From Shewanella litorisediminis (GTDB lineage Bacteria; Pseudomonadota; Gammaproteobacteria; Enterobacterales; Shewanellaceae): 64,000 nt of DNA. Below, one piece after another: positions 19,681 to 53,788 of this stretch. The translations under genes and the position numbers were made by a program. How positions within the stretch are numbered: the first letter of the stretch is position 1; each line of letters begins with the position of its first letter. Below the pieces are notes generated by a model, which saw only the letters and a list, made by a program, of their open reading frames with translations, made no database searches and was not told the DNA's origin. Where the stretch lies: contig NZ_CP069213.1 of the NCBI RefSeq assembly GCF_016834455.1, positions 2,604,501 to 2,668,500 on the forward strand, written 5' to 3'.

Positions 19681-19760
19681 AAGCAGAGCGGGCTAAAGCC
19701 CGTCCAGAAAAAGCAGAGCGCTTCGCTTCCAGATTCTAGAATCTAGAATCTAGAATCTAG
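19681..19760. repeat. Hairpin modules plus (AATCTAG)n heptamers
   Basis: A GCGGGCT/AGCCCGT hairpin, an AGCG-CTT-CGCT hairpin, then four heptamers (ATTCTAG and three AATCTAG, 19733-19760). It lies at the convergent junction of nlpE and rfbC and belongs to the same family as arrays near 21.4, 24.3, 46.7, 49.5 and 52.5 kb. Confidence 0.85.
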
Positions 19761-19826
19761 AAGCGATTTGCCGCAAGCAGATTAAACGCGGCATAAAGAT
19801 GTTCACCAAGGGTGGAGCGGAAAAAA

Positions 19827-21310: not shown

Positions 21311-21460
21311 ACAGAGCGCTTCGCTTCTAGAGCGTCGCTTTGCGACTTCTAGGTTCTAGGTTCTAGGTTCTAGGTTCTAGGTTCTAGGTTCTAGGTTCTA
21401 GGTTCTAGGTTCTAGGTTCTAGATTCTAGGGTCTAGCAGCCCGCTTTGTGGGCGCTCTGG
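21311..21460. repeat. (TTCTAGG)n heptamer array with hairpins, between rfbA and rfbD
   Basis: Two hairpins (AGCG-CTT-CGCT and GTCGC-TTT-GCGAC) run straight into ten perfect TTCTAGG units (21347-21416), then TTCTAGA, TTCTAGG and GTCTAGC, and a GCCCGC-TTT-GTGGGC hairpin ending next to rfbA. Because 7 is not a multiple of 3, and CTAG is its own complement, TAG occurs in all frames of both strands. Confidence 0.95.
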
Positions 21461-21471
21461 CGCGAAGCGCA

Positions 21472-22374
21472 CTAAAGCAAACCGCGTAAATAGTCTCCGT
21501 ATCCGCTCTGGCTAAGCGCCTTTGCGTGCTGCAACAAGGTCTCTGTCGATATCCAGCCCTGGCGATAGGCGATTTCTTCAAGACACGCAATCTTCAGACC
21601 TTGTCGCTTTTCAATGGTTTGCACAAAATGCCCGGCTTCCATCAGCGCATCGTGGGTACCTGTATCCAACCAGGCAAAGCCCCGCCCAAGCACACTCACC
21701 TGTAATTGGTTGGCTGCGAGATACGCATTATTGATGTCGGTAATTTCAAGCTCTCCGCGGGCCGAATGCGTAAGGCTTTTAGCAATCTCAATGACCTGAT
21801 TATCGTAAAAATACAAGCCGGTGACTGCGTAATGGGACTTGGGCTCGCGAGGCTTTTCTTCAATGCTGACAGCACGGCCTGTGTTATCAAACTCCACTAC
21901 CCCAAATCGCTCGGGGTTTGTCACATGGTAGGCAAACACCGTGGCGCCGTGAGAGCAATCCACGGCCTGCTGCAGCTGCCTGGAAAAGCTTTGGCCGTAG
22001 AAAATATTGTCACCCAGGATGAGGGCAACCTTGTCATTACCGATAAAGTCTTCACCGATTAAAAATGCCTGGGCTATCCCTTCGGGTTTGGATTGAACGG
22101 CATAACTGATGCGAATGCCAAGGCCACTGCCATCACCGAGCAAAGATTGGAAACCTGCAAGGTCACTTGCCGTGGATATCAGCAGGATGTCGCGAATGCC
22201 GGCAAGCATGAGCACCGACAGCGGATAGTACACCATGGGTTTGTCGTACACGGGCAACAACTGCTTGGATACGCCGCGGGTAATGGGATAAAGCCTGCTG
22301 CCGGTACCGCCCGCTAGGATAATGCCTTTGGTCGTTTGAGTGTTAAATGCTGAATGCTGAATGTTAAGTGACAT
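21472..22374 (-). CDS. rfbA: Glucose-1-phosphate thymidylyltransferase
   Basis: A 300-residue nucleotidyltransferase making dTDP-glucose. The catalytic signature [11 protein letters not shown] and [11 protein letters not shown] follow directly. RfbA normally begins at or just before KGIILAGG. Here no ATG exists at that place; translation must start at 22374, and residues 2-15 ([14 protein letters not shown]) are encoded by degenerate heptamers. No clear Shine-Dalgarno sequence precedes this ATG, which lies four bases after the stop of the four-helix-bundle gene, so translational coupling is likely. Confidence 0.92.
22335..22369. repeat. Five heptamers within the 5' end of rfbA
   Basis: On the + strand TTTGAGT, GTTAAAT, GCTGAAT, GCTGAAT, GTTAAGT follow each other in 7-base steps. 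They are in the opposite orientation to the (ATTCACC)n array on the other side of the four-helix-bundle gene. Confidence 0.8.
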
Positions 22375-22378
22375 GACT

Positions 22379-22744
22379 TTACTTAGTTTGATTCTGCTGA
22401 GCAGATTTTACGATAGCTACAATGAGTTTGATTAGCTCTTCACTTTGCTCCAACAGCGACACAACATGGGAATCTTTGCTATTCAGGTAGTCTGTTTCAC
22501 ACAAAAGCAATAGCCAATAGTGAGTCTCTCTGGCTTCCTTGCTCGCTATCGCCATTTTAGCAATAAAATCAGCATGGCTTTGTGCGGATTGAGCTTCATT
22601 CACATTGGCCCCAATCGAAGTACCCGATCTGAGTAACTGCTTAGAGAGCACGAATTCTTTTTGATTTTTCACTAAGTGCTGACTGAGCTTCACTATTCTG
22701 ACAGCAAATTGAAACGACTTATCAAGCACTGCATTACCAGTCAT
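22379..22744 (-). CDS. Four-helix-bundle protein (S23/IVS-like), first copy
   Basis: A 121-residue helical protein of the four-helix-bundle family (23S rRNA intervening-sequence protein, structurally related to the Avd protein of diversity-generating retroelements). Family features are [28 protein letters not shown] and [15 protein letters not shown]. The cellular role of stand-alone members is unknown. GGGAG lies about 8 bases before the ATG. It sits between rfbB and rfbA, unrelated to rhamnose synthesis, with heptamer arrays at both ends. Confidence 0.85.
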
Positions 22745-22760
22745 CAGCGTTACTCCCTAA

Positions 22761-22956
22761 GTTCACCACTCACGATTCACCATTCACCATTCACCATTCA
22801 CCATTCACCATTCACCATTCACCATTCACCATTCACCATTCACCATTCACCACTCACCATTCACCATTCACCATTCACCATTCACCATTCACCATTCACC
22901 ATTCACCACTCACCATTCACCATTCACCATTCACCATTCACCATTCACCATTCAAA
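22761..22956. repeat. (ATTCACC)n heptamer array
   Basis: 27 consecutive 7-base units from GTTCACC at 22761 to 22949, then ATTCAAA. Units 2, 14 and 22 read ACTCAC(G/C), the rest ATTCACC; the 8-unit spacing of the last two suggests internal duplication. The right end overlaps the last codons and the stop of rfbB. Confidence 0.97.
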
Positions 22957-24071
22957 ACATACCACTCTACCGTTTTACGCAGTCCCGATTCAAAGGTCTC
23001 CTGCGGTTTCCAGCCGAGCTCTTCGGTAATTTTGCTGGCATCAATGGCGTAGCGAACATCATGGCCGGGTCTGTCAGCCACGAAAGCGATAAGACTTTCG
23101 TAACGTTGAGAACTGGGGGATGAATGATGAGGATTGAGCTCCTGAGCGCGCTCATGCAGGGGCGCCAACTCGTCGAGGATCGCACAAATGCTTTTAACCA
23201 CCTCGAGATTTTGACGCTCGCAATTCCCGCCGATGTTATAAGTCTCGCCTACCCGCCCACGTGTTAATACGGCCAGCAGCGCCCTAGCGTGGTCTTCCAC
23301 ATAGAGCCAATCGCGGCTTTGGTTTCCTTGCCCATATACGGGTAACGCCTTACCCGCCAGCGCATTTTGAATAGTCAGCGGTATCAGTTTTTCCGGGTAT
23401 TGAAATGGCCCGTAGTTGTTGGAGCAGTTGCTGACAACTATCGGCAAACCATAGGTTCGGTGCCATGCTCTAACCAGATGATCGCTTGAGGCCTTGGAGG
23501 CGGAATAAGGCGATGACGGGGCATAAGCGCTGCTTTCGGTAAAAGGTGCTGCTGCTTTTAACGCTGAATCATGAATGTTCAATGGTGAATTTGCACCACG
23601 AGCGTTCAATTCAGCATTCACAACCAAACATTCGGCATGAACTTGGTCAGCAAGGTCGCCAAATACCTCGTCGGTCGAGACATGATGAAATCGAAATGCG
23701 TTTTTACGCATATCGTCGAGCTGCAGCCAGTATTCACGGGCAACTTCCAATAAGGTGTAAGTACCCACTATGTTGGTTTGGATAAAGGCATCCGCACCGG
23801 ATATAGAGCGGTCGACATGGGTTTCTGCAGCAAGGTGCATCACCACATCGGGCTGATGGCGAGCAAAAACCGCCCCAAGCGCCTGCCTGTCACAGATGTC
23901 CACACGCTCAAGCGCGTATCTGGCGCTTTCGGCCGCCTCAGTGACCGAATCCAGATTTGCCGCATAAGTCAGCTTGTCGACATTCACCACGCTGTGTTCA
24001 GTGTGACTGATTAAATGTCTGATTACCGCCGAACCGATAAAGCCGCAGCCACCTGTGATAAGAATCTTCAT
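22938..24071 (-). CDS. rfbB: dTDP-glucose 4,6-dehydratase with in-frame insert
   Basis: A 377-residue SDR enzyme converting dTDP-glucose to dTDP-4-keto-6-deoxyglucose. TGGCGFIG (6-13), the catalytic STDEVFGD (132-139) and YSASK (189-193) are intact. Between the last two motifs, where family members have a short linker, about 30 extra residues (roughly 145-174) are encoded by an inverted heptamer block. A smaller extra stretch lies near 309-321. The final residues LNGEW and the TGA stop come from the (GGTGAAT)n array. Start at 24071 (MKILITGG) has GAGG upstream; the frame extends four codons further. Confidence 0.92.
23563..23636. repeat. Inverted heptamer block inside rfbB
   Basis: On the + strand GCTGAAT, CATGAAT, GTTCAAT, GGTGAAT (23563-23590), an 18-base spacer, then ATTCAGC, ATTCACA, ACCAAAC, ATTCGGC (23609-23636). 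The two arms are in opposite orientation, the same layout as around the four-helix-bundle gene but with no gene between. Confidence 0.75.
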
Positions 24072-45220: not shown

Positions 45221-46204
45221 TCAATATATTTTCCTGTTTCCCAATGCAACGCGCGTAAAGACTATTGCCATCGACAACATGAACCCAAGAAACGTTCCCA
45301 AAATACATATCAAAGCTCGCCTAGGTTTAAACTTATCCTCAGGAACTACAGCAGGATCTATTGTTTTAAACACATATTCATCACGAACTTCAGCAAACAT
45401 TGTAGTTTTTGCTTGCTCTTCAATCAATTTATACAAAATCACACGAATATCTGAAACATTTGTAAGTTCAATCTGCTTGTTCAAAAATTCTGTACTCCGC
45501 ATTGCTTCGGCAACATCACGTTCTTTCATTACCCGATTAATATCAAGTATCAACCAATCTACCCACTGCTTTGCAATAAATGGCGATTGATGCTCTACCT
45601 CTATAGTGACCATACCGCTTTCTTTGTCCGCGCTCACTGAGAATATTTTCATAAACTCTTTATGCGCTTCTTGCACTGACGGTTCTGGCTTTAATGGAGC
45701 CTTAACCTCACGAACCCAGCTTTTGGTTTCTGTATCAAAAAGCTCGGGTTCAAAACTTAAGCGGTTGTCAGAAATGTACCATTTATCCACGGCCATGAGT
45801 TCCGGCATTATTTGGTGTTTTTCAATAAACTCACCGACAAATTGACGTGATTTAAGGACCTCTATGGCCAACTGGGTTTTATCAATTCCACCCTTCCCCC
45901 CCAAATTGATCCCCGCCATGCTCGCTAGCCCACCAAACTGGGATGCCAGTGCAGCGAGGCCGCCGCTGCTAGCCTCGCTGCTCGCCGGCGCCAGCAAGGC
46001 TTCTGCCTTGTAAATATTGGGTTGATTAATGGCAAAAATCACCGAGCCAATGGCAAATAGGGCGGTAATAGCGATGATGAGCCATTTACCTTGCCAGATA
46101 ACAGAGAAGAGCTCGCGCAAATCGATTTCGTCTTCCCGCGTAGTTTGCGGGAATTGTGCATCGACTTGCAGATCTTTTGTATTTTGAGTTATTTGAGTAT
46201 TCAT
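45221..46204 (-). CDS. wzz: Chain-length determinant Wzz
   Basis: A 327-residue inner-membrane polysaccharide co-polymerase with membrane segments near 37-57 and 298-318 flanking a large periplasmic domain. The N-terminal EIDLRELFSVIWQGKW and the Pro/Gly-rich second segment are typical. There is no cytoplasmic kinase domain, so it is a Wzz rather than a Wzc. The ribosome-binding region is poor: heptamers TAGGTTT/TAGGTAC begin six bases before the ATG. Confidence 0.92.
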   Translation of the reverse strand: MNTQITQNTKDLQVDAQFPQTTREDEIDLRELFSVIWQGKWLIIAITALFAIGSVIFAINQPNIYKAEALLAPASSEASSGGLAALASQFGGLASMAGINLGGKGGIDKTQLAIEVLKSRQFVGEFIEKHQIMPELMAVDKWYISDNRLSFEPELFDTETKSWVREVKAPLKPEPSVQEAHKEFMKIFSVSADKESGMVTIEVEHQSPFIAKQWVDWLILDINRVMKERDVAEAMRSTEFLNKQIELTNVSDIRVILYKLIEEQAKTTMFAEVRDEYVFKTIDPAVVPEDKFKPRRALICILGTFLGFMLSMAIVFTRVALGNRKIY

Positions 46205-46209
46205 ATTAT

Positions 46210-46276
46210 TAGGTTTTAGGTACTAGGTACTAGGCCCTAGGAAAGCTTAAAGATTTCTAAAGAAGGTTCTAGGTTA
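46210..46276. repeat. TAGGNNN heptamers between wzz and four-helix-bundle gene
   Basis: Five successive 7-base units TAGGTTT, TAGGTAC, TAGGTAC, TAGGCCC, TAGGAAA (46210-46244), and a further GGTTCTAGGTTAG that overlaps the stop codon of the four-helix-bundle gene. Confidence 0.85.
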
Positions 46277-46648
46277 GATGTTGTAATCAACAGAACCTTC
46301 TCTAACACTGCCTTTGCGTATTTTAATAAGAGCCGCGATCATTGCTGAGATTTCTTTTGCCTCTCTAATTAGCAAGCCTCCTTGCTGTTTTTCGATTAGT
46401 CCAATCTCAACTGCAATATAGATCTGTGTAACGAGCTCACCAGCAGATCCCTTTGCAAAGTACAGAAACCTTGCTGACTCAGCTTGAGATTCTCTCTCTT
46501 CACCTTCTGCTATATTAGACGGTATCGAGACAGCGGCTCGAGTCATTTGATCCTTTAGCCCATAATCTCGACTGTCTTTTAATGCTTTATAAACATCACA
46601 AGCAAGTCGGGAAGCGCGTTTCCAAACATCCAATTGTTCAAAGCGCAT
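46274..46648 (-). CDS. Four-helix-bundle protein (S23/IVS-like), second copy
   Basis: A 124-residue helical protein of the same broad family as the one at 22379-22744 but of another subfamily. Typical features are FEQLDVWKRASRLACDVY, RAAVSIPSNIAEGEE and RFLYFAKGSAGELVTQI. AAGGAG lies seven bases before the ATG, and repeat sequence begins directly upstream of that and directly after the stop. It has no known role in polysaccharide export although it sits between the Wza-like gene and wzz. Confidence 0.88.
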   Translation of the reverse strand: MRFEQLDVWKRASRLACDVYKALKDSRDYGLKDQMTRAAVSIPSNIAEGEERESQAESARFLYFAKGSAGELVTQIYIAVEIGLIEKQQGGLLIREAKEISAMIAALIKIRKGSVREGSVDYNI

Positions 46649-46662
46649 CTGCGGACTCCTTA

Positions 46663-46848
46663 AGTTCCAAGTTCTAGGTTCCGGAAACCCGCTTTGCGGG
46701 TGTCCAAGCAGTTGCGAAGCAACGTCCTAGATCCTAGGGCCTAGCATCCCGCTAGAGCGGGCGTCCAAGAAGCAGCGGCTTTCGCTGCGTCCTGGCAGTT
46801 GCGAAGCAACGTTCTAGATTCCTGGGCCTGCCAACTCGAGAAGCGAGT
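46663..46848. repeat. Heptamer and hairpin array after the Wza-like gene
   Basis: Three heptamers, then hairpins ACCCGC-TTT-GCGGGT, GTTGC-GAA-GCAAC (twice, 46711 and 46798), a CCCGCT/AGCGGG stem, GCAGCG/CGCTGC and ACTCG/CGAGT. They are joined by CTAG heptamers such as GTCCTAG-ATCCTAG-GGCCTAG. The module hairpin-plus-three-heptamers occurs twice with an 87-base period. The array starts at the stop codon of the export gene. Confidence 0.9.
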
Positions 46849-49328
46849 TACAGCCCGCTGATTGTTGCCACTGCTACGGCGGTGTTGTAGATGATCTGTG
46901 TTACCTGGCTCCACAATGTCAGGTTGTCTTTGTACTCGGTATCCAGCGGCACAACGATGGTGTCGCCGGGCTGCATCTCTTCGTCACTGCTGAACCAATA
47001 AGAGCTGCCGGGCATGGCGACTGAGCCATCGGCGCGCAGAATGTAAGCGCGGTCGTCATCTGCGCGTTTCCGCGGGCCACCGGCAAGCTCCAAATACTGG
47101 TCGAAGGTAAAGCCCCTTTTGTATCTGTGGGTGCTGGGGTGTTGTACCTGCCCCATTACGGATACGGTTTGGTTCTGCGCAGGGATGTACAGGGCATCGC
47201 CGTCTTCAAGCTTGAGGTCGGCTTCTTCTATGCCAAGCTGAATGGCATTGATGTCCACCACCAAACGGCCCAGCACCTGCACATTTTCAAGCTCTTTAAG
47301 CATGTTTTGGGCATCGGCATAGCCTACCGTGGGGGTATCCTTGGTGAGCGCCTTGGCTGCGATTTCACGGCGCAGTTCGTCGGATAACTTTAACAACTCG
47401 GTTTTTTCTTTAAGCTTTACCGATTCGCGCAAGAACACAGCGCTGCGGGGTGCGGCATCTTTGCTGAGCCCACCTGCACGGCTAAGCACGTGCTTAAGGG
47501 TTTCACCACGTTGAATACTATAGGTACCCGGGAAGCGTACTTCACCTTTGATGGTTACCCAACGGGTGTCTTGCCAGTCGGGCAAGTCCCGCACGGTCAA
47601 CACATCACGGCTTTGCAGGGCGATATTAGCGGAAGGTATGTCTTGTAATACGTCCTGCAAACTCAGCTGTTGATGGCTTACGGTTACGCCATTTTGCTCG
47701 GAAATATTCTGGCGGGTGAGTTCAGCCGAAAGCGTATAAGCGCCTTCCTTCAAGCCACCAGCGGCCACAAGCAAATCTTTAATGGTGGCGCCTTCCGTAA
47801 TCGGGTACTTACCGGGGAAACGCACACTGCCGTTAATATCGGCCAGTTTTATCGCATCACCAAAACGGCTTTGCTGACGCAGTTGGGTAATAACAGGCTC
47901 GAGTAGTGTGGCTCTGTCGGCATAATCAAATACCATCAGGGTGTCGCGAGGCTGCAGGGCAATGTTGGCGCGGTCATCACCGCTGATGGCTTTGCCCACA
48001 GAAACCTGAATCACCTTTACATCACCGCGCTGGTTAATCTCACGTACCAGCAGGCCGTAATCCAGATCCGCATTCAGGGTCAGATCCCCCCAGATTGACG
48101 GCAACATATCGCGAATTCGCATGCCATTGCGATACTGGTATTTACCCGGGCGAACGACCGCCCCCACCAGGGTTACCGCATTATCGATACGGGTAGAGGT
48201 TGATTTTACTCTAACCAGATCTCCTGCTTTGGCCTTAACACTGAGGCCAGATGCCTGAGTTAAATCCACATTAATAACGGTTTTTACATCTTTGCTGAAA
48301 CGTTCAATGGTACTGGCTTCAGGATAGGCGCCCGGTTTGGCACCGCTTGCCATCTTAAGCACATCCGCCATGGTGTCATCAGCTTTGATCTCATATATAG
48401 CTGGGCGGCGAACTTCACCCGTTACACTCACCAGCCCACCAACAGACGGAATAAACACCACGTCGCCGGATTGCAGGCGCAAATCTTTTGAGGCGTCACC
48501 TGCCAGCAGCAAGTCGTATAAATCGAAGGTGCCTACGGTACGGCCAGCACGCTTGAGCTGAATATTACGCAGTGAGCCAATCTCGTTGATGCCGCCGGAA
48601 ACAAACAGTGCCTGCGTGATGGTAGACAGACTGGATACGGTATATGAGCCTGGGCGATAGGCATCACCCGCCACAAAAATACGAATGGAACGCAGCTCTC
48701 CCATGGTGATGTTGGCCTGAATGCCAATCATGGATTGTGCGATTTTGTCTGTGAGGAAGCTTTTGGCTTCAGAGAAGCTCATCCCCACCAAGGAGATAGG
48801 GCCAAGACCCGGGAACTGCACTCCACCATCACGGCCAACCGTGAGGCTGAAGTTTTTGTTTTCTTTACCGTATAACTGCACGTTAAGTACATCGCCCGGC
48901 CCCATCATGTACTCGGCGGGTACGGGTACGTCCGACACAGGGGCAAAAGTTGATGGCTCACCTGCGAACATGTCGTAACCAAAGCGCTTGAGCTGCTTTT
49001 CAAGGTCTTCCTCACGGGCAACGACTTCAGACTCGGTTTTAGTCGCCTGATTGATAGCGTCTGACTCACTTTGGTCAACTACTACGTTTTCTTTGGTTTC
49101 GCGAGGCGCAACAACCTCTGGGTTGGTTACCGAGGCCTGAGTCGGCGTTGTACCCAGTAAACTCGGGTCGATACCATACTGACGGGCAATGCGTTCCTGC
49201 TCTGCTTTTGGCAGATTCTTGAACTGTTCAATCATTTGCGGCGACGGCGTAATAGCTGCAACAGGGCCCCCAACCAAAACCAGTGCTCCCACACCGGCAA
49301 TCAAAAATCGTTTTAGTTGTTGTAACAC
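46848..49328 (-). CDS. Polysaccharide export protein with multiple SLBB domains (Wza-like)
   Basis: An 826-residue exported protein, more than twice the length of E. coli Wza. After a signal peptide (about 1-26, ending GGPVAA) come a coiled/variable region and a polysaccharide-export domain starting at YMMGPGDVLNVQLYG. About six SLBB-like repeats follow (each with G.V..PG.Y and a downstream GG), then a C-terminal hydrophobic helix. No lipobox Cys is present. Start chosen as GTG at 49328, with GGAG upstream and the signal peptide directly after; the frame back to 49424 is repeat-derived. It is the first gene after the ops site. Confidence 0.85.
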   Translation of the reverse strand: MLQQLKRFLIAGVGALVLVGGPVAAITPSPQMIEQFKNLPKAEQERIARQYGIDPSLLGTTPTQASVTNPEVVAPRETKENVVVDQSESDAINQATKTESEVVAREEDLEKQLKRFGYDMFAGEPSTFAPVSDVPVPAEYMMGPGDVLNVQLYGKENKNFSLTVGRDGGVQFPGLGPISLVGMSFSEAKSFLTDKIAQSMIGIQANITMGELRSIRIFVAGDAYRPGSYTVSSLSTITQALFVSGGINEIGSLRNIQLKRAGRTVGTFDLYDLLLAGDASKDLRLQSGDVVFIPSVGGLVSVTGEVRRPAIYEIKADDTMADVLKMASGAKPGAYPEASTIERFSKDVKTVINVDLTQASGLSVKAKAGDLVRVKSTSTRIDNAVTLVGAVVRPGKYQYRNGMRIRDMLPSIWGDLTLNADLDYGLLVREINQRGDVKVIQVSVGKAISGDDRANIALQPRDTLMVFDYADRATLLEPVITQLRQQSRFGDAIKLADINGSVRFPGKYPITEGATIKDLLVAAGGLKEGAYTLSAELTRQNISEQNGVTVSHQQLSLQDVLQDIPSANIALQSRDVLTVRDLPDWQDTRWVTIKGEVRFPGTYSIQRGETLKHVLSRAGGLSKDAAPRSAVFLRESVKLKEKTELLKLSDELRREIAAKALTKDTPTVGYADAQNMLKELENVQVLGRLVVDINAIQLGIEEADLKLEDGDALYIPAQNQTVSVMGQVQHPSTHRYKRGFTFDQYLELAGGPRKRADDDRAYILRADGSVAMPGSSYWFSSDEEMQPGDTIVVPLDTEYKDNLTLWSQVTQIIYNTAVAVATISGL

Positions 49329-49373
49329 CAGATGTCTCCGTGAAAGGTGATTGAATGTAAAACAAAGCTGATC

Positions 49374-49616
49374 GTCGCTGCGCGACTGCAAGTGACCAGA
49401 AGAGCCGAACGTTCGCAAGCTCACTTACAGAACGCTGCGCTTACAGAAAACAGAGAGGGCTTAAAAGCAGAGCGCTTCGCTTCTAGGGTCTAGGGTCTAG
49501 AAGCAGCGTGTCCGCTGCGCTCTAGAGACACGAAGTGTCGTTCCAGAAGCCCGCTTTGCGGGCGCCCTAACAGCAGCGCTTATTGCTGCGCTCTTCGCCA
49601 CTAAGTGGCGCTCAGG
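49374..49616. repeat. Hairpin-linker array in the leader, ending at ops
   Basis: Hairpins GTCGC/GCGAC, AGCG-CTT-CGCT, three heptamers TTCTAGG-GTCTAGG-GTCTAGA, then GCAGCG/CGCTGC, GACAC-GAA-GTGTC, GCCCGC-TTT-GCGGGC, GCAGC/GCTGC and GCCAC-TAA-GTGGC (49503-49609). Linkers of 7-9 bases (GCTCTAGA, GTTCCAGAA, GCCCTAACA, GCTCTTC, GCTCAGG) join them, and the last ends exactly where ops begins. Confidence 0.9.
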
Positions 49617-50720: not shown

Positions 50721-50918
50721 AAGAAGGCCTTTTTAGGGCATAACCCTGTTACATTAGGGGTTTATTATAAAAACGACGTATAGACGCTCCTGCAACAAGT
50801 TGTAAAAAACATTTACTAACAGATATTTACTGTTAATGATGCCATCAGGAATGTCACATTTTCTGTTTCGTAGAGCCACTGCTTTACGTGCAATCACAAG
50901 CTTAAGGTGGAAGACTTA

Positions 50919-52391
50919 ATGAGCGAAAATTCCCAGGGTACGATGCTAGGGCATCCAAAGGGGCTGTTTCTGCTGTTCACAACGGAACTGTGGGAACGAT
51001 TCAGTTACTATGCCATGCGCGCCATATTGGTGCTGTATCTGGTTGACCGAGTCCAAAGCGAGGGAGGGCACGGTTTAGGTTGGAGCCAGGCCGATGCGAT
51101 TTCTCTTTACGGTACTTTTACCGGCTTGGTCTACCTCACACCGCTTATCGGTGGCTGGTTAGCTGATAATTTCCTTGGTCAACGTAAAGCCATTATGATT
51201 GGCGGCACCCTGATGGCTGCCGGCCAGTTTATTCTGGGTACCCCCCATGCGTGGGTGCAGGGCATGGAAACCGAAGTTTTCTACCTGGGTCTGGGTGTAC
51301 TTATCCTCGGTAACGGTCTGTTTAAGCCCAACATTTCTACCATGGTTGGTGACCTGTATGCCGAAGGTGATCATCGTCGTGACGGCGCTTTCACCATCTT
51401 CTACATGGGTATCAACGTAGGTGCCTTCCTGTCAGGTATCGTGGTTGGTTCGGTTGTCAGCGCGTACGATGGCAACTTCCAGGCTGGTTTTATCTGTGCC
51501 GGTATCGGTATGGTGCTGTCGCTCATCATTCAATTCGTATTTGCGCAAAAGCTGCTGGGCAATATCGGTACTGTGCCTGCTGCCAAGCTTGAGAAGCAAA
51601 AAGACGAGGCCCGTGGCCAAGTTCGTAAAGAACCGCTGACCAAAGTCGAGCGTGATCGTATCAAAGTGATCATGGTGATGGGTCTGTTCACCATCGTTTT
51701 CTGGGCAGGCTTTGAACAGGCCGGTGGTCTGATGAACCTGTTCACCAACGATTTTACCGACCGTATGATTGGCAGCTGGGAAGTACCTACTACCTGGTTC
51801 CAGTCACTTAACGCCATGTTTATCGTAATTTTTGCCCCTGTGGTTGCCTCTATTTGGGTGCGCCTCGGCGACCGTGAGCCAAACTCACCTGTTAAATTCG
51901 CACTCGGCCTGGTTCTGCTGGCCATCGGCTTCCTGTTTATGATTGGTGCCGTGGTTGAGATGGGTGGTGACCCAACTGCCAAGTCCAGCATGTGGTGGCT
52001 GGTTGGTGCCTACTTCTTCCACACCATGGGTGAACTGTGCCTGTCTCCAATCGGTCTGTCGATGGTGACCAAGCTTGCTCCCCTGCGTATCGTATCTCTG
52101 ATGATGGGTGCATGGTTCCTGTTTATCGCCGCTGCCAACAAGATTGGTGGTGTTGTGGGTTCCTTTATCGGTCATGGTGGTGAGAAAGAAGAGCAGCTGG
52201 CCAATGCCATGTCTATCTTCGCCGGTATTGCCATCACCGCCGCCATTTCAGGCGTGATCCTGTACTTTATGGCTGACAAACTGGTTGATTGGATGCACGG
52301 CGCCGAAAGCAAAGTGCACCACACCGAAGAAGAAGCCCTGGAAGAAGAAATCGCCGTTACCGGCGAGCATGAAGCGATTAAGCGCAGCTGA
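50919..52391 (+). CDS. POT-family proton-dependent peptide transporter
   Basis: A 490-residue inner-membrane transporter with about fourteen hydrophobic segments. The POT signature ELWERFSYYAMRA near residue 25 gives the proton/substrate-coupling ExxERFxYY motif, and FYMGINVGAFLS matches the second family motif. It imports di- and tripeptides with protons. Start chosen at 50919 (MSENSQGTML) with AAGGTGG upstream; the frame begins four codons earlier. The C-terminus is acidic. Confidence 0.93.
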   Translation: MSENSQGTMLGHPKGLFLLFTTELWERFSYYAMRAILVLYLVDRVQSEGGHGLGWSQADAISLYGTFTGLVYLTPLIGGWLADNFLGQRKAIMIGGTLMAAGQFILGTPHAWVQGMETEVFYLGLGVLILGNGLFKPNISTMVGDLYAEGDHRRDGAFTIFYMGINVGAFLSGIVVGSVVSAYDGNFQAGFICAGIGMVLSLIIQFVFAQKLLGNIGTVPAAKLEKQKDEARGQVRKEPLTKVERDRIKVIMVMGLFTIVFWAGFEQAGGLMNLFTNDFTDRMIGSWEVPTTWFQSLNAMFIVIFAPVVASIWVRLGDREPNSPVKFALGLVLLAIGFLFMIGAVVEMGGDPTAKSSMWWLVGAYFFHTMGELCLSPIGLSMVTKLAPLRIVSLMMGAWFLFIAAANKIGGVVGSFIGHGGEKEEQLANAMSIFAGIAITAAISGVILYFMADKLVDWMHGAESKVHHTEEEALEEEIAVTGEHEAIKRS

Positions 52392-52396
52392 TAACA

Positions 52397-52615
52397 GCAC
52401 AGCGCTTCGCTTCCAGAGCGTCGCTAAAGGACTACTAGGTTCTAGAAACAATAAAGCCCGCATTGCGGGCTTTATTGTTTTCTGGAAAACCGAACGATTC
52501 TAGAACCCCGCTTTGCGGGCGCCCTAGCCGCAGCGATTTTTGCTGCGTCCTAGAGACACGTAGTGTCGTCCTAGAAGCTCGCTTTGCGAGCGTTCTATAG
52601 CCATGAAGTGGCGTT
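52397..52615. repeat. Hairpin-linker array at a convergent junction
   Basis: Modules CCCGC-TTT-GCGGG, GCAGC/GCTGC, GACAC-GTA-GTGTC, GCTCGC-TTT-GCGAGC and GCCA(T/C)-GAA-(G)TGGC lie at 52507-52612, joined by GTCCTAGA, GTCCTAGAA and GTTCTATA. The last linker supplies the TAG stop of the response-regulator gene. A related AGCG-CTT-CGCT module lies at the left end. This array is outside the polysaccharide operon. Confidence 0.88.
52447..52479. terminator. Bidirectional terminator
   Basis: AACAATAAAGCCCGC pairs fully with GCGGGCTTTATTGTT around a three-base loop, flanked by T residues. It lies between the convergent transporter and response-regulator genes and could stop both. Confidence 0.85.
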
Positions 52616-53719
52616 CTAAAAACTCGCCTGAACATAGCCTCCGGCAAGCACGCCATCACTGCAGACAAGGCCATCAAACCTGTCATCCAGCAACATTTGC
52701 TTATGGGAGGGGTCCGAGGTGGCGATACAGAGTTTTTCCCCCGGCAATAACGAGCGGAACTGGCTGCTGGGCTTGCCCCAATCAAGCAAACCAAGCTGGA
52801 GCGCATCGGGTAATGCCAGCGGTGTCAGGCCTTTATCGTTTCGAAGATAACAGCGAAGCCCATGCCCCGCCTGGGACACAGAAGCGCGGTAATGTTTAAG
52901 CTCAACACTCAGGTAAACAATGTCCACGGTGATCTCAAGCCCTGACTTTACAATGCGCTCATTCAAATAACTGAGCATATTAAAGGGCTCAATCACAGTG
53001 GTGCTCACGCCATTGCGATAGGCTTTGAGTTTATGGTTAACGAAACTTCTCAGCAGGACACTGGCGAAGGCTGCGCGATTGTCCTCTGGATGGAAGTGCG
53101 CCATGTAAAGGATAAGGTGTTCACTGTCAGCCATGGTGGAATCGATAAAAAACGCGCTGATCCCATCATTTTTATACAGACTGTAATCGATTCTGACCTT
53201 GGGATAGAGCACCTGAGAAGCAGGGAAAAGCTCTTTTTGGATGTGTTTGGCGGCCTCGGTATTTTGCTCAAGCAGCCGCAGGTTTTCTTCCAGCTCAACC
53301 CGGGAGAGTTCATCCATGTCCTGTAATTCGTTGGCCTGCGCGCCTATGCTGCCAAGACTTTGGCGAATGGACTGCTCGATAATGTATAAGTCTGCAACTG
53401 GCTTAACCAGGTAGTCAGAGGCACCAATTCTGAGCGCCTCGACCACATCGGCCATCACATTATTTCCTGATATCACAATGGAAGGCATGGCGGGGTCAAG
53501 GCGATACATTTCCCGCAGCATGTCGAGCCCGCCCAGATTGGGCATACTCAGGTCGGCCAGCACCACATCAAAGTTTTGCCGTTTAAAGCAATCCAGGCCC
53601 TGAATTCCGTCGTCGGCTTCGGTGACCAAAGCGCCACGGCTGTCCAAAAATGACGCGACGACCCTGCGAAACACAGGATCGTCTTCTACCAACAACACAG
53701 ATACATCTTTTAGCGCCAT
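52616..53719 (-). CDS. Response regulator with PP2C-like output domain (RssB-like)
   Basis: A 367-residue cytoplasmic protein: receiver domain (about 5-120) with VEDD, the phospho-acceptor Asp56 in LADLSMPN and Lys106 in DYLVKPV, a helical linker (about 125-170), and a C-terminal half resembling a PP2C/SpoIIE phosphatase fold (AHFHPEDNRAAFASVLL, SQAGHGLRCYL). The metal-binding Asp pattern is incomplete, as in RssB, the adaptor that feeds RpoS to ClpXP. A role in stress sigma control is a family-level inference. GAGGG precedes the ATG. Confidence 0.8.
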   Translation of the reverse strand: MALKDVSVLLVEDDPVFRRVVASFLDSRGALVTEADDGIQGLDCFKRQNFDVVLADLSMPNLGGLDMLREMYRLDPAMPSIVISGNNVMADVVEALRIGASDYLVKPVADLYIIEQSIRQSLGSIGAQANELQDMDELSRVELEENLRLLEQNTEAAKHIQKELFPASQVLYPKVRIDYSLYKNDGISAFFIDSTMADSEHLILYMAHFHPEDNRAAFASVLLRSFVNHKLKAYRNGVSTTVIEPFNMLSYLNERIVKSGLEITVDIVYLSVELKHYRASVSQAGHGLRCYLRNDKGLTPLALPDALQLGLLDWGKPSSQFRSLLPGEKLCIATSDPSHKQMLLDDRFDGLVCSDGVLAGGYVQASF

Positions 53720-53788
53720 ATACTTCCCTCAGGGAGCTGATAGCGCAGAGGAGGGGGATTCTCCGCCGGAGTTATCCCTTGAGGACGG

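Follow-up and report, generated by a model that had tools for sequence, protein, structure and literature searches.

In Shewanella litorisediminis a gene for a small four-helix-bundle protein, located between wza and wzz, is bounded on both sides by heptamer repeats that are inverted with respect to each other. We consider it probable that gene and repeats together are an insertion cassette of the S23/IVP type, one member of a family spread throughout the bacteria, with a stem that lets the host excise it. Such a cassette would measure ca. 420–650 bp, carry a single gene for an Avd-like four-helix protein and end in inverted, lineage-specific heptamer arrays. It would enter junctions between genes, often within operons and mostly oriented with transcription. 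At the RNA level the arrays would base-pair as a stem closing a loop that contains the gene, and the host would cut the cassette from the transcript, as RNase III does for the intervening sequences (IVS) of 23S rRNA, so that the neighboring genes stay functional. The ring-forming protein would bind its own heptamer and act in the upkeep or spread of the cassette and its arrays.

Structures of S23/IVP proteins have been available since 2006, and we know of no function for the family. Heptamer-ended IVP cassettes give a first handle on the abundance of 7-base tandem repeats between bacterial genes, and the link makes both sides testable, i.e., the protein gains candidate ligands and the repeats gain a candidate partner. 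The protein family, the IVS and the heptamers are each known; what appears to be new is the S23 intervening element between genes with a clade-specific heptamer code.

The cassette between wza and wzz

The window, i.e., the whole stretch of 64,000 nucleotides that was analyzed, contains the target gene at 46274–46648 on the minus strand (124 aa). Its product matches the PF05635 profile with E=5e-34, over the curated cut-off and as the sole Pfam domain above cut-off, and also NF008912/TIGR02436 “four helix bundle protein.” The AlphaFold model (mean pLDDT 94) has four helices, and its best PDB matches are 2GSC and 2RLD, both of the S23 family, followed more remotely by Avd (4DWL) from the Bordetella phage retroelement. 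The four-helix-bundle gene of the initial annotation is thus, by profile match and by fold, a member of the S23/23S_rRNA_IVP family (PF05635, TIGR02436). The Pfam and TIGRFAM/NCBI profile matches were of the S23 family only, with no known recombinase among them. Downstream lies a wzz-like chain-length gene (45221–46204, minus strand) and upstream a Wza/SLBB-type export gene (46848–49424, minus strand), both in conserved synteny.

The downstream (3′) array at 46204–46245 on the minus strand, TATTATTAGGTTTTAGGTACTAGGTACTAGGCCCTAGGAAAG, reads CCTAGGG CCTAGTA CCTAGTA CCTAAAA CCTAATA in sense, matches itself at 18 of 21 positions in the lag-7 score and stops just ahead of the wzz start codon. A lone unit, CCTAGAACC (46265–46273, minus strand), directly follows the stop codon of the target gene. 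The upstream (5′) heptamers of this minus-strand feature (46724–46744) are GTCCTAG ATCCTAG GGCCTAG on the plus strand, or CTAGGCC CTAGGAT CTAGGAC in sense, spaced by exactly 7 bp and inverted with respect to the downstream array. The arms 46230–46242 and 46732–46744 are complementary at 13 of 13 positions. The 268 bp of flank hold 10 CTAG where the rate of the window predicts 0.34 (Poisson p=5e-12), a density ca. 30 times that of the window, across which CCTAG is scarce (40 found, 81 expected). The CTAG-type heptamers described at the outset as flanking the gene in inverted orientation are therefore real. In the right flank CTAG units are interspersed with short hairpins up to 46847, in place of a pure heptamer array, so the feature reaches past 46744. 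This mosaic fills the minus-strand stretch from the wza stop to the IVP gene (46674–46847), includes the short hairpins GTTGCTTCGCAAC, CCCGCAAAGCGGG and others, and its arrangement recurs in other Shewanella. The hairpins at 46680–46847, 49480–49610 and 52410–52620 have a stem of ca. 5 bp, a loop of 3 nt, differing arms and CTAG spacers; a sister clade has a like hairpin design with ACGGA/TCCGT spacers instead of CTAG.

Among short periods only 7 and its multiple 14 are common in the window, period 7 giving 271 subwindows with at least 21 of 28 matches vs. 0–9 at the other lags up to 15 (14 excepted). A second PF05635 gene, an open frame with start not fixed, lies at 22379–22756 (minus strand) and is the only other one in the 4.24-Mb genome. 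It is followed by TTCAGCA TTCAGCA in sense (22334–22375, minus strand) and preceded by an inverted array of ca. 27 units (22760–22962, minus strand) that reads TTCACCA on the plus strand and TGGTGAA in sense. The two proteins are 21% identical, and one goes with CTAG-type and the other with TTCACCA/TTCAGCA units, which bears out the earlier suggestion of different subfamilies, each with its own heptamer. The two nearest relatives have a far shorter TTCACCA run (ca. 3–7 units), which suggests that the length of this array changes rapidly. Two arrays of the window stand alone, ca. 13 units of TTCTAGG at 21339–21440, intergenic and without a PF05635 gene, and TTCTAGAATCTAGAATCTAG at 19722–19772. 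Others are CTAG heptamers with hairpins at 49472–49610, upstream of wza, and a gene-less CTAG/hairpin array at 52392–52615, between a transporter gene (50874–52391) and the gene at 52616–53728. The last is the gene-less version of a site filled by a second IVP cassette in other Shewanella species. Solo arrays probably represent the remains of cassettes whose gene was lost, or the outcome of spread in trans.

Heptamer-ended loci across bacteria

For a set of 200 distinct PF05635 loci, drawn from Shewanella, from a sample of its class and from named genomes of ca. 19 phyla, we scored the flanks within 400 bp of the gene for period-7 arrays; plasmid records, mostly cyanobacterial, were used in addition. 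These were present in 198 of 392 flanks vs. 0–3 in dinucleotide-shuffled flanks. In the named-genome set 51/80 upstream and 50/78 downstream flanks were positive, vs. 0–8 positives for other periods (except 14) and 2–3 for flanks taken 1.5 kb away. Heptamer arrays accompany PF05635 genes in at least 16 phyla and in 10 of the 12 additional plasmid loci, 11 of these 12 being cyanobacterial; 70 of the 200 genes had no array at the threshold applied. Phage-borne cassettes were looked for with the target protein in 50,697 phage records, and none matched.

The anatomy of the target is also that of the family. Comparison of upstream with downstream arrays in 74 loci showed inversion in 65 (p=1e-11), the remaining nine scoring as direct, partly from arrays present in both orientations. 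The upstream and downstream heptamers of a locus match each other (0.646 vs. 0.447 with loci shuffled; maximum of 500 shuffles 0.472). They have a common core that, on the sense strand upstream, consists of A/G and then G at two fixed positions, usually with T/G next, so that the upstream form can be written AG(T/G)NNNN and the downstream form is its complement; the information content of the core is 2.77 bits vs. at most 2.44 with columns permuted, and the other four positions vary. Around one IVP clade (L049, L052, L063 near 4223, and L067) the 15-bp tandem repeat GCTGAGACGGTACAA and its relatives replace plain heptamers.

Insertion and movement

The clearest view of the cassette as inserted DNA comes from two plasmids of Nostoc sp. 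ATCC 53789, pNsp_a and pNsp_c, that have the genes A-B-C in common (91–99.5% identical DNA). In pNsp_a a cassette separates A from B, and in pNsp_c another, unlike it, separates B from C; as different junctions are occupied, each plasmid provides the empty site of the other. The empty A|B site is GGTTCTAGGTTATG and the filled one GGTTCTA-AATCAGGAGTCAG...CTGACTTCTGGATTCTA-GTTATG. Filled and empty versions of five cyanobacterial plasmid sites place heptamer arrays at the ends of the inserted DNA or a few bases from them, BC excepted. The junctions vary: AB is a clean insertion, at the sites T, N and S ca. 7–42 target bases were replaced, and BC has ca. 45 extra bases past the right array. No constant target-site duplication was found across the five. 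One element occurs at two sites: L287 and L289 lie at unrelated locations, and over exactly 418 bp their cassettes have 81% identity.

Such cases are few. Among ca. 150 locus pairs with at least 80% identical DNA only L003/L007 (80%) lay in different surroundings; very similar cassettes almost always keep their context, so movement is rare. We therefore rejected recent transposition within Shewanella, where pairs at or above 80% identity keep their context except L003/L007. A classical insertion sequence would be expected to have near-identical copies at several sites; the cases observed are L003/L007 at 80% and L287/L289 at 81% identity.

The cassettes may possibly be minimal mobile elements found throughout bacteria that use no known recombinase, with an Avd-like pentamer-type protein and a heptamer code as ends, inserting into transcribed junctions by an RNA- or repeat-templated route, leaving transcripts by stem excision and seeding many intergenic heptamer arrays, with the rRNA IVS as one branch. 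As Avd is the partner of a reverse transcriptase and S23 resembles Avd, an RNA-borne route is thinkable; no reverse transcriptase is located nearby.

The rarity of movement brings in the most serious rival, to which we give a little less than even weight: a stationary, vertically inherited helper, like the RAYT of REP sequences, that maintains or spreads cognate arrays in trans while the cassette itself hardly moves. A RAYT likewise is a single-copy gene that has its own repeats on either side and corresponds to one class of repeat (PMC3116915). The cassettes stay at one site, solo arrays fill gaps between genes and the matching arrays are dispersed through the genome. Thus, CTAGAAC arrays occur in 57/68 Shewanella genomes with a PF05635 gene vs. 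17/61 without (p=1e-10, on raw counts that ignore kinship). CTCGAAG arrays, whose backward pattern is a rotation of the heptamer and provides no control, are found in 4/4 genomes of the cognate clade vs. 8/125 others; CTTGYMR arrays in 3/3 vs. 12/126; and TTCAVCA arrays in 4/4 vs. 8/125, kinship being ignored in all three. There are exceptions, as some genomes with a heptamer family lack the gene that matches it; one that was counted as gene-less (G006) has kept its array beside an internally deleted gene. Against a purely stationary helper, the protein has no transposase domain, and the filled/empty pairs together with the same element at two sites show that the cassette too can move.

Neighboring genes

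Cassettes occupy junctions between genes of dissimilar operons. These include cysD-cysN, hemD-hemE, tssK-tssL, wza-wzb, rfbB-rfbA, cas6-cas4 and, in antisense, nrdB-nrdA. In the type I-D CRISPR operon of a Pseudanabaena galeata plasmid a cassette with long arrays (L286) separates cas6 from cas4. Where both neighbors are codirectional the IVP gene has the same direction in 38 of 45 cases (38:7), no stronger than for ordinary genes (60:14; not significant). The initial claim that the cassette splits functionally linked genes stands in general, as seen at cysD-cysN, hemD-hemE, tssK-tssL, nrdA-nrdB and cas6-cas4, but not for wza-wzz in Shewanella, where the order wza-IVP-wzz is syntenic in 50 loci and is an old resident arrangement with no recent split. 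The target cassette could be a domesticated operon member. In three of the wza-wzz loci (L209, L219 and L226, of the Shewanella genomes G070, G103 and G113) an insert of ca. 85–100 bp breaks the IVP gene at the same point and looks like a small non-coding repeat element.

At cysD-cysN part of the downstream array persists in some gene-less species. The order cysD-IVP-cysN is found in Shewanella (L029, L031, L036, L004, L005 and L016) and in a verrucomicrobial locus (L161), and the heptamers of the two differ, which indicates that this junction has probably been used more than once.

A protein that binds the heptamers in DNA or mRNA and so tunes the expression of polysaccharide or other host operons is an unlikely alternative that nonetheless fits part of these data. 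The Shewanella IVP genes lie within surface-polysaccharide loci, the downstream array borders on the region where the following gene starts (wzz, cysN), and a translational role has been proposed for TAACTGA heptamers (PMC4679880). However, the neighbors outside Shewanella are diverse (haem, menaquinone, sulfate, T6SS, nrd and cas genes) and have no common theme, the sites of a single-stranded RNA binder should be direct and are here inverted, and IVP-free relatives retain the operon.

Heptamers and protein clades

The initial annotation had expected protein subfamily and heptamer to go together, and they do. In Shewanella the Mantel correlation of heptamer similarity with protein distance was rho -0.61, with 0/500 permutations as extreme, in a within-genus test that is not independent of host phylogeny. 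Outside the genus the signal was weak (rho -0.095, again 0/500), probably owing to a turnover of heptamers that outpaces what a comparison of distant proteins can follow. Pairs from different genera at 0.5–1 substitutions per site share the heptamer in 23% of cases vs. ca. 0.2% beyond, many of the sharing pairs involving one Pseudoalteromonas locus (L121) and so not being independent.

The best-controlled comparison is the contrast within a single site. Among the 50 wza-wzz loci, one clade of 15 has a median of one CTAG and four ACGGA/TCCGT, vs. nine and zero in the other 35 (p=1e-7 for CTAG, 4e-8 for ACGGA/TCCGT); the node of the 15 has a support of 67 and the wider clade of 99. In one genome (G128) the site holds a different IVP clade with a different repeat family next to a Wza 94% identical to that of the window. 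A second Shewanella site shows the same swap of clade and repeat.

Most likely the S23/IVP protein would bind its own heptamer as a ring-shaped oligomer. Co-inheritance of linked flanks would yield part of the clade signal, and the match of clade and heptamer therefore does not in itself establish recognition. Taken to its end, this argument makes the heptamers slippage-grown microsatellites linked to the gene, with a clade correlation due to co-inheritance and no recognition, an explanation that we regard as improbable. It would account for the physical linkage of arrays and genes and for the variable copy number, and it gains from the dependence of the within-genus tests on host phylogeny, but a strict period of 7, a fixed inversion, a common AG core, flanks that match each other and the occurrence of cognate arrays at other places in the genome speak against it.

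Comparison with known systems

The element that the cassette most resembles is the rRNA IVS. In Coxiella the 23S rRNA IVS is 428 nt long and is excised by RNase III; it carries an S23-type ORF in sense orientation, with tandem GACAGAT heptamers ahead of the ATG, and terminal inverted repeats that form a 28-bp stem (PMC4990558). The IVS (Coxiella; Leptospira) and the cassette are alike in their size of ca. 430 nt, their single sense S23-family ORF and their stem-forming inverted termini, and in Coxiella as in the target the heptamers adjoin the ORF. The target has an S23-type ORF with inverted complementary termini and heptamers beside it, and predicted RNA folding pairs both arms around the gene (z -4.8 for the target, -3.1 for L289). 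From these IVS-like parts and the predicted pairing we propose that the arrays are the element ends and may form an excision stem. Unlike rRNA IVS, cassettes lie between protein genes, have heptamer arrays at both ends and have solo arrays elsewhere in the genome. The target sits between wza and wzz and not in an rRNA gene helix, and an Rfam search of the gene-poor loci L125, L127, L140, L155, L169, L170 and L181 for cassettes in rRNA genes gave one tRNA only.

With RAYT/REP (REPIN) systems the cassette has in common a single-copy gene, flanking inverted repeats paired with the clade, and repeats dispersed between genes; at the target the repeats are inverted, clade-paired and genome-dispersed. 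It differs in having no Y1 HUH transposase and in its tandem heptamers, with hairpin mosaics in Shewanella, vs. the 20–40 nt palindromes of REP.

That the protein is the accessory (Avd) part of a diversity-generating retroelement (DGR) is very improbable, and we rejected it: the fold is the same as that of Avd (4DWL, TM 0.72–0.84; DGR particle 8UBE/8UB7) and PF05635 is common in DGR neighborhoods (PMC10053308), but the only reverse transcriptase of the genome is 0.8 Mb away and there is no template/variable repeat pair among the repeats of 46000–47000.

The heptamers too have known counterparts, since intergenic tandem heptamers are common to S23/IVP loci and to the heptanucleotide repeats of bacteria, i.e., the cyanobacterial STRR, TAACTGA of Beggiatoaceae and GGGAATC of Xanthomonas. 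For one Beggiatoaceae genome 169 sets of the TAACTGA heptamer were reported (PMC4679880), and a survey of 7006 prokaryotic genomes reported heptamers as the most abundant intergenic tandem repeats, their periodicity being described as widespread and unexplained and their function as having “no clear clue” (PMC6344855). The papers covered on STRR, TAACTGA and GGGAATC draw no tie to S23/IVP genes, and in the part of the literature covered we found no paper linking non-rRNA S23/IVP genes to flanking heptamers. In Vibrio salinus an IVP gene (L164, 4001 region) has the upstream array AGTTATC, which after rotation equals TAACTGA as read from the opposite strand. By analogy with Coxiella, the rRNA intervening sequences would be the known branch of the heptamer-ended S23/IVP cassettes, and so one branch of a much larger family of elements.
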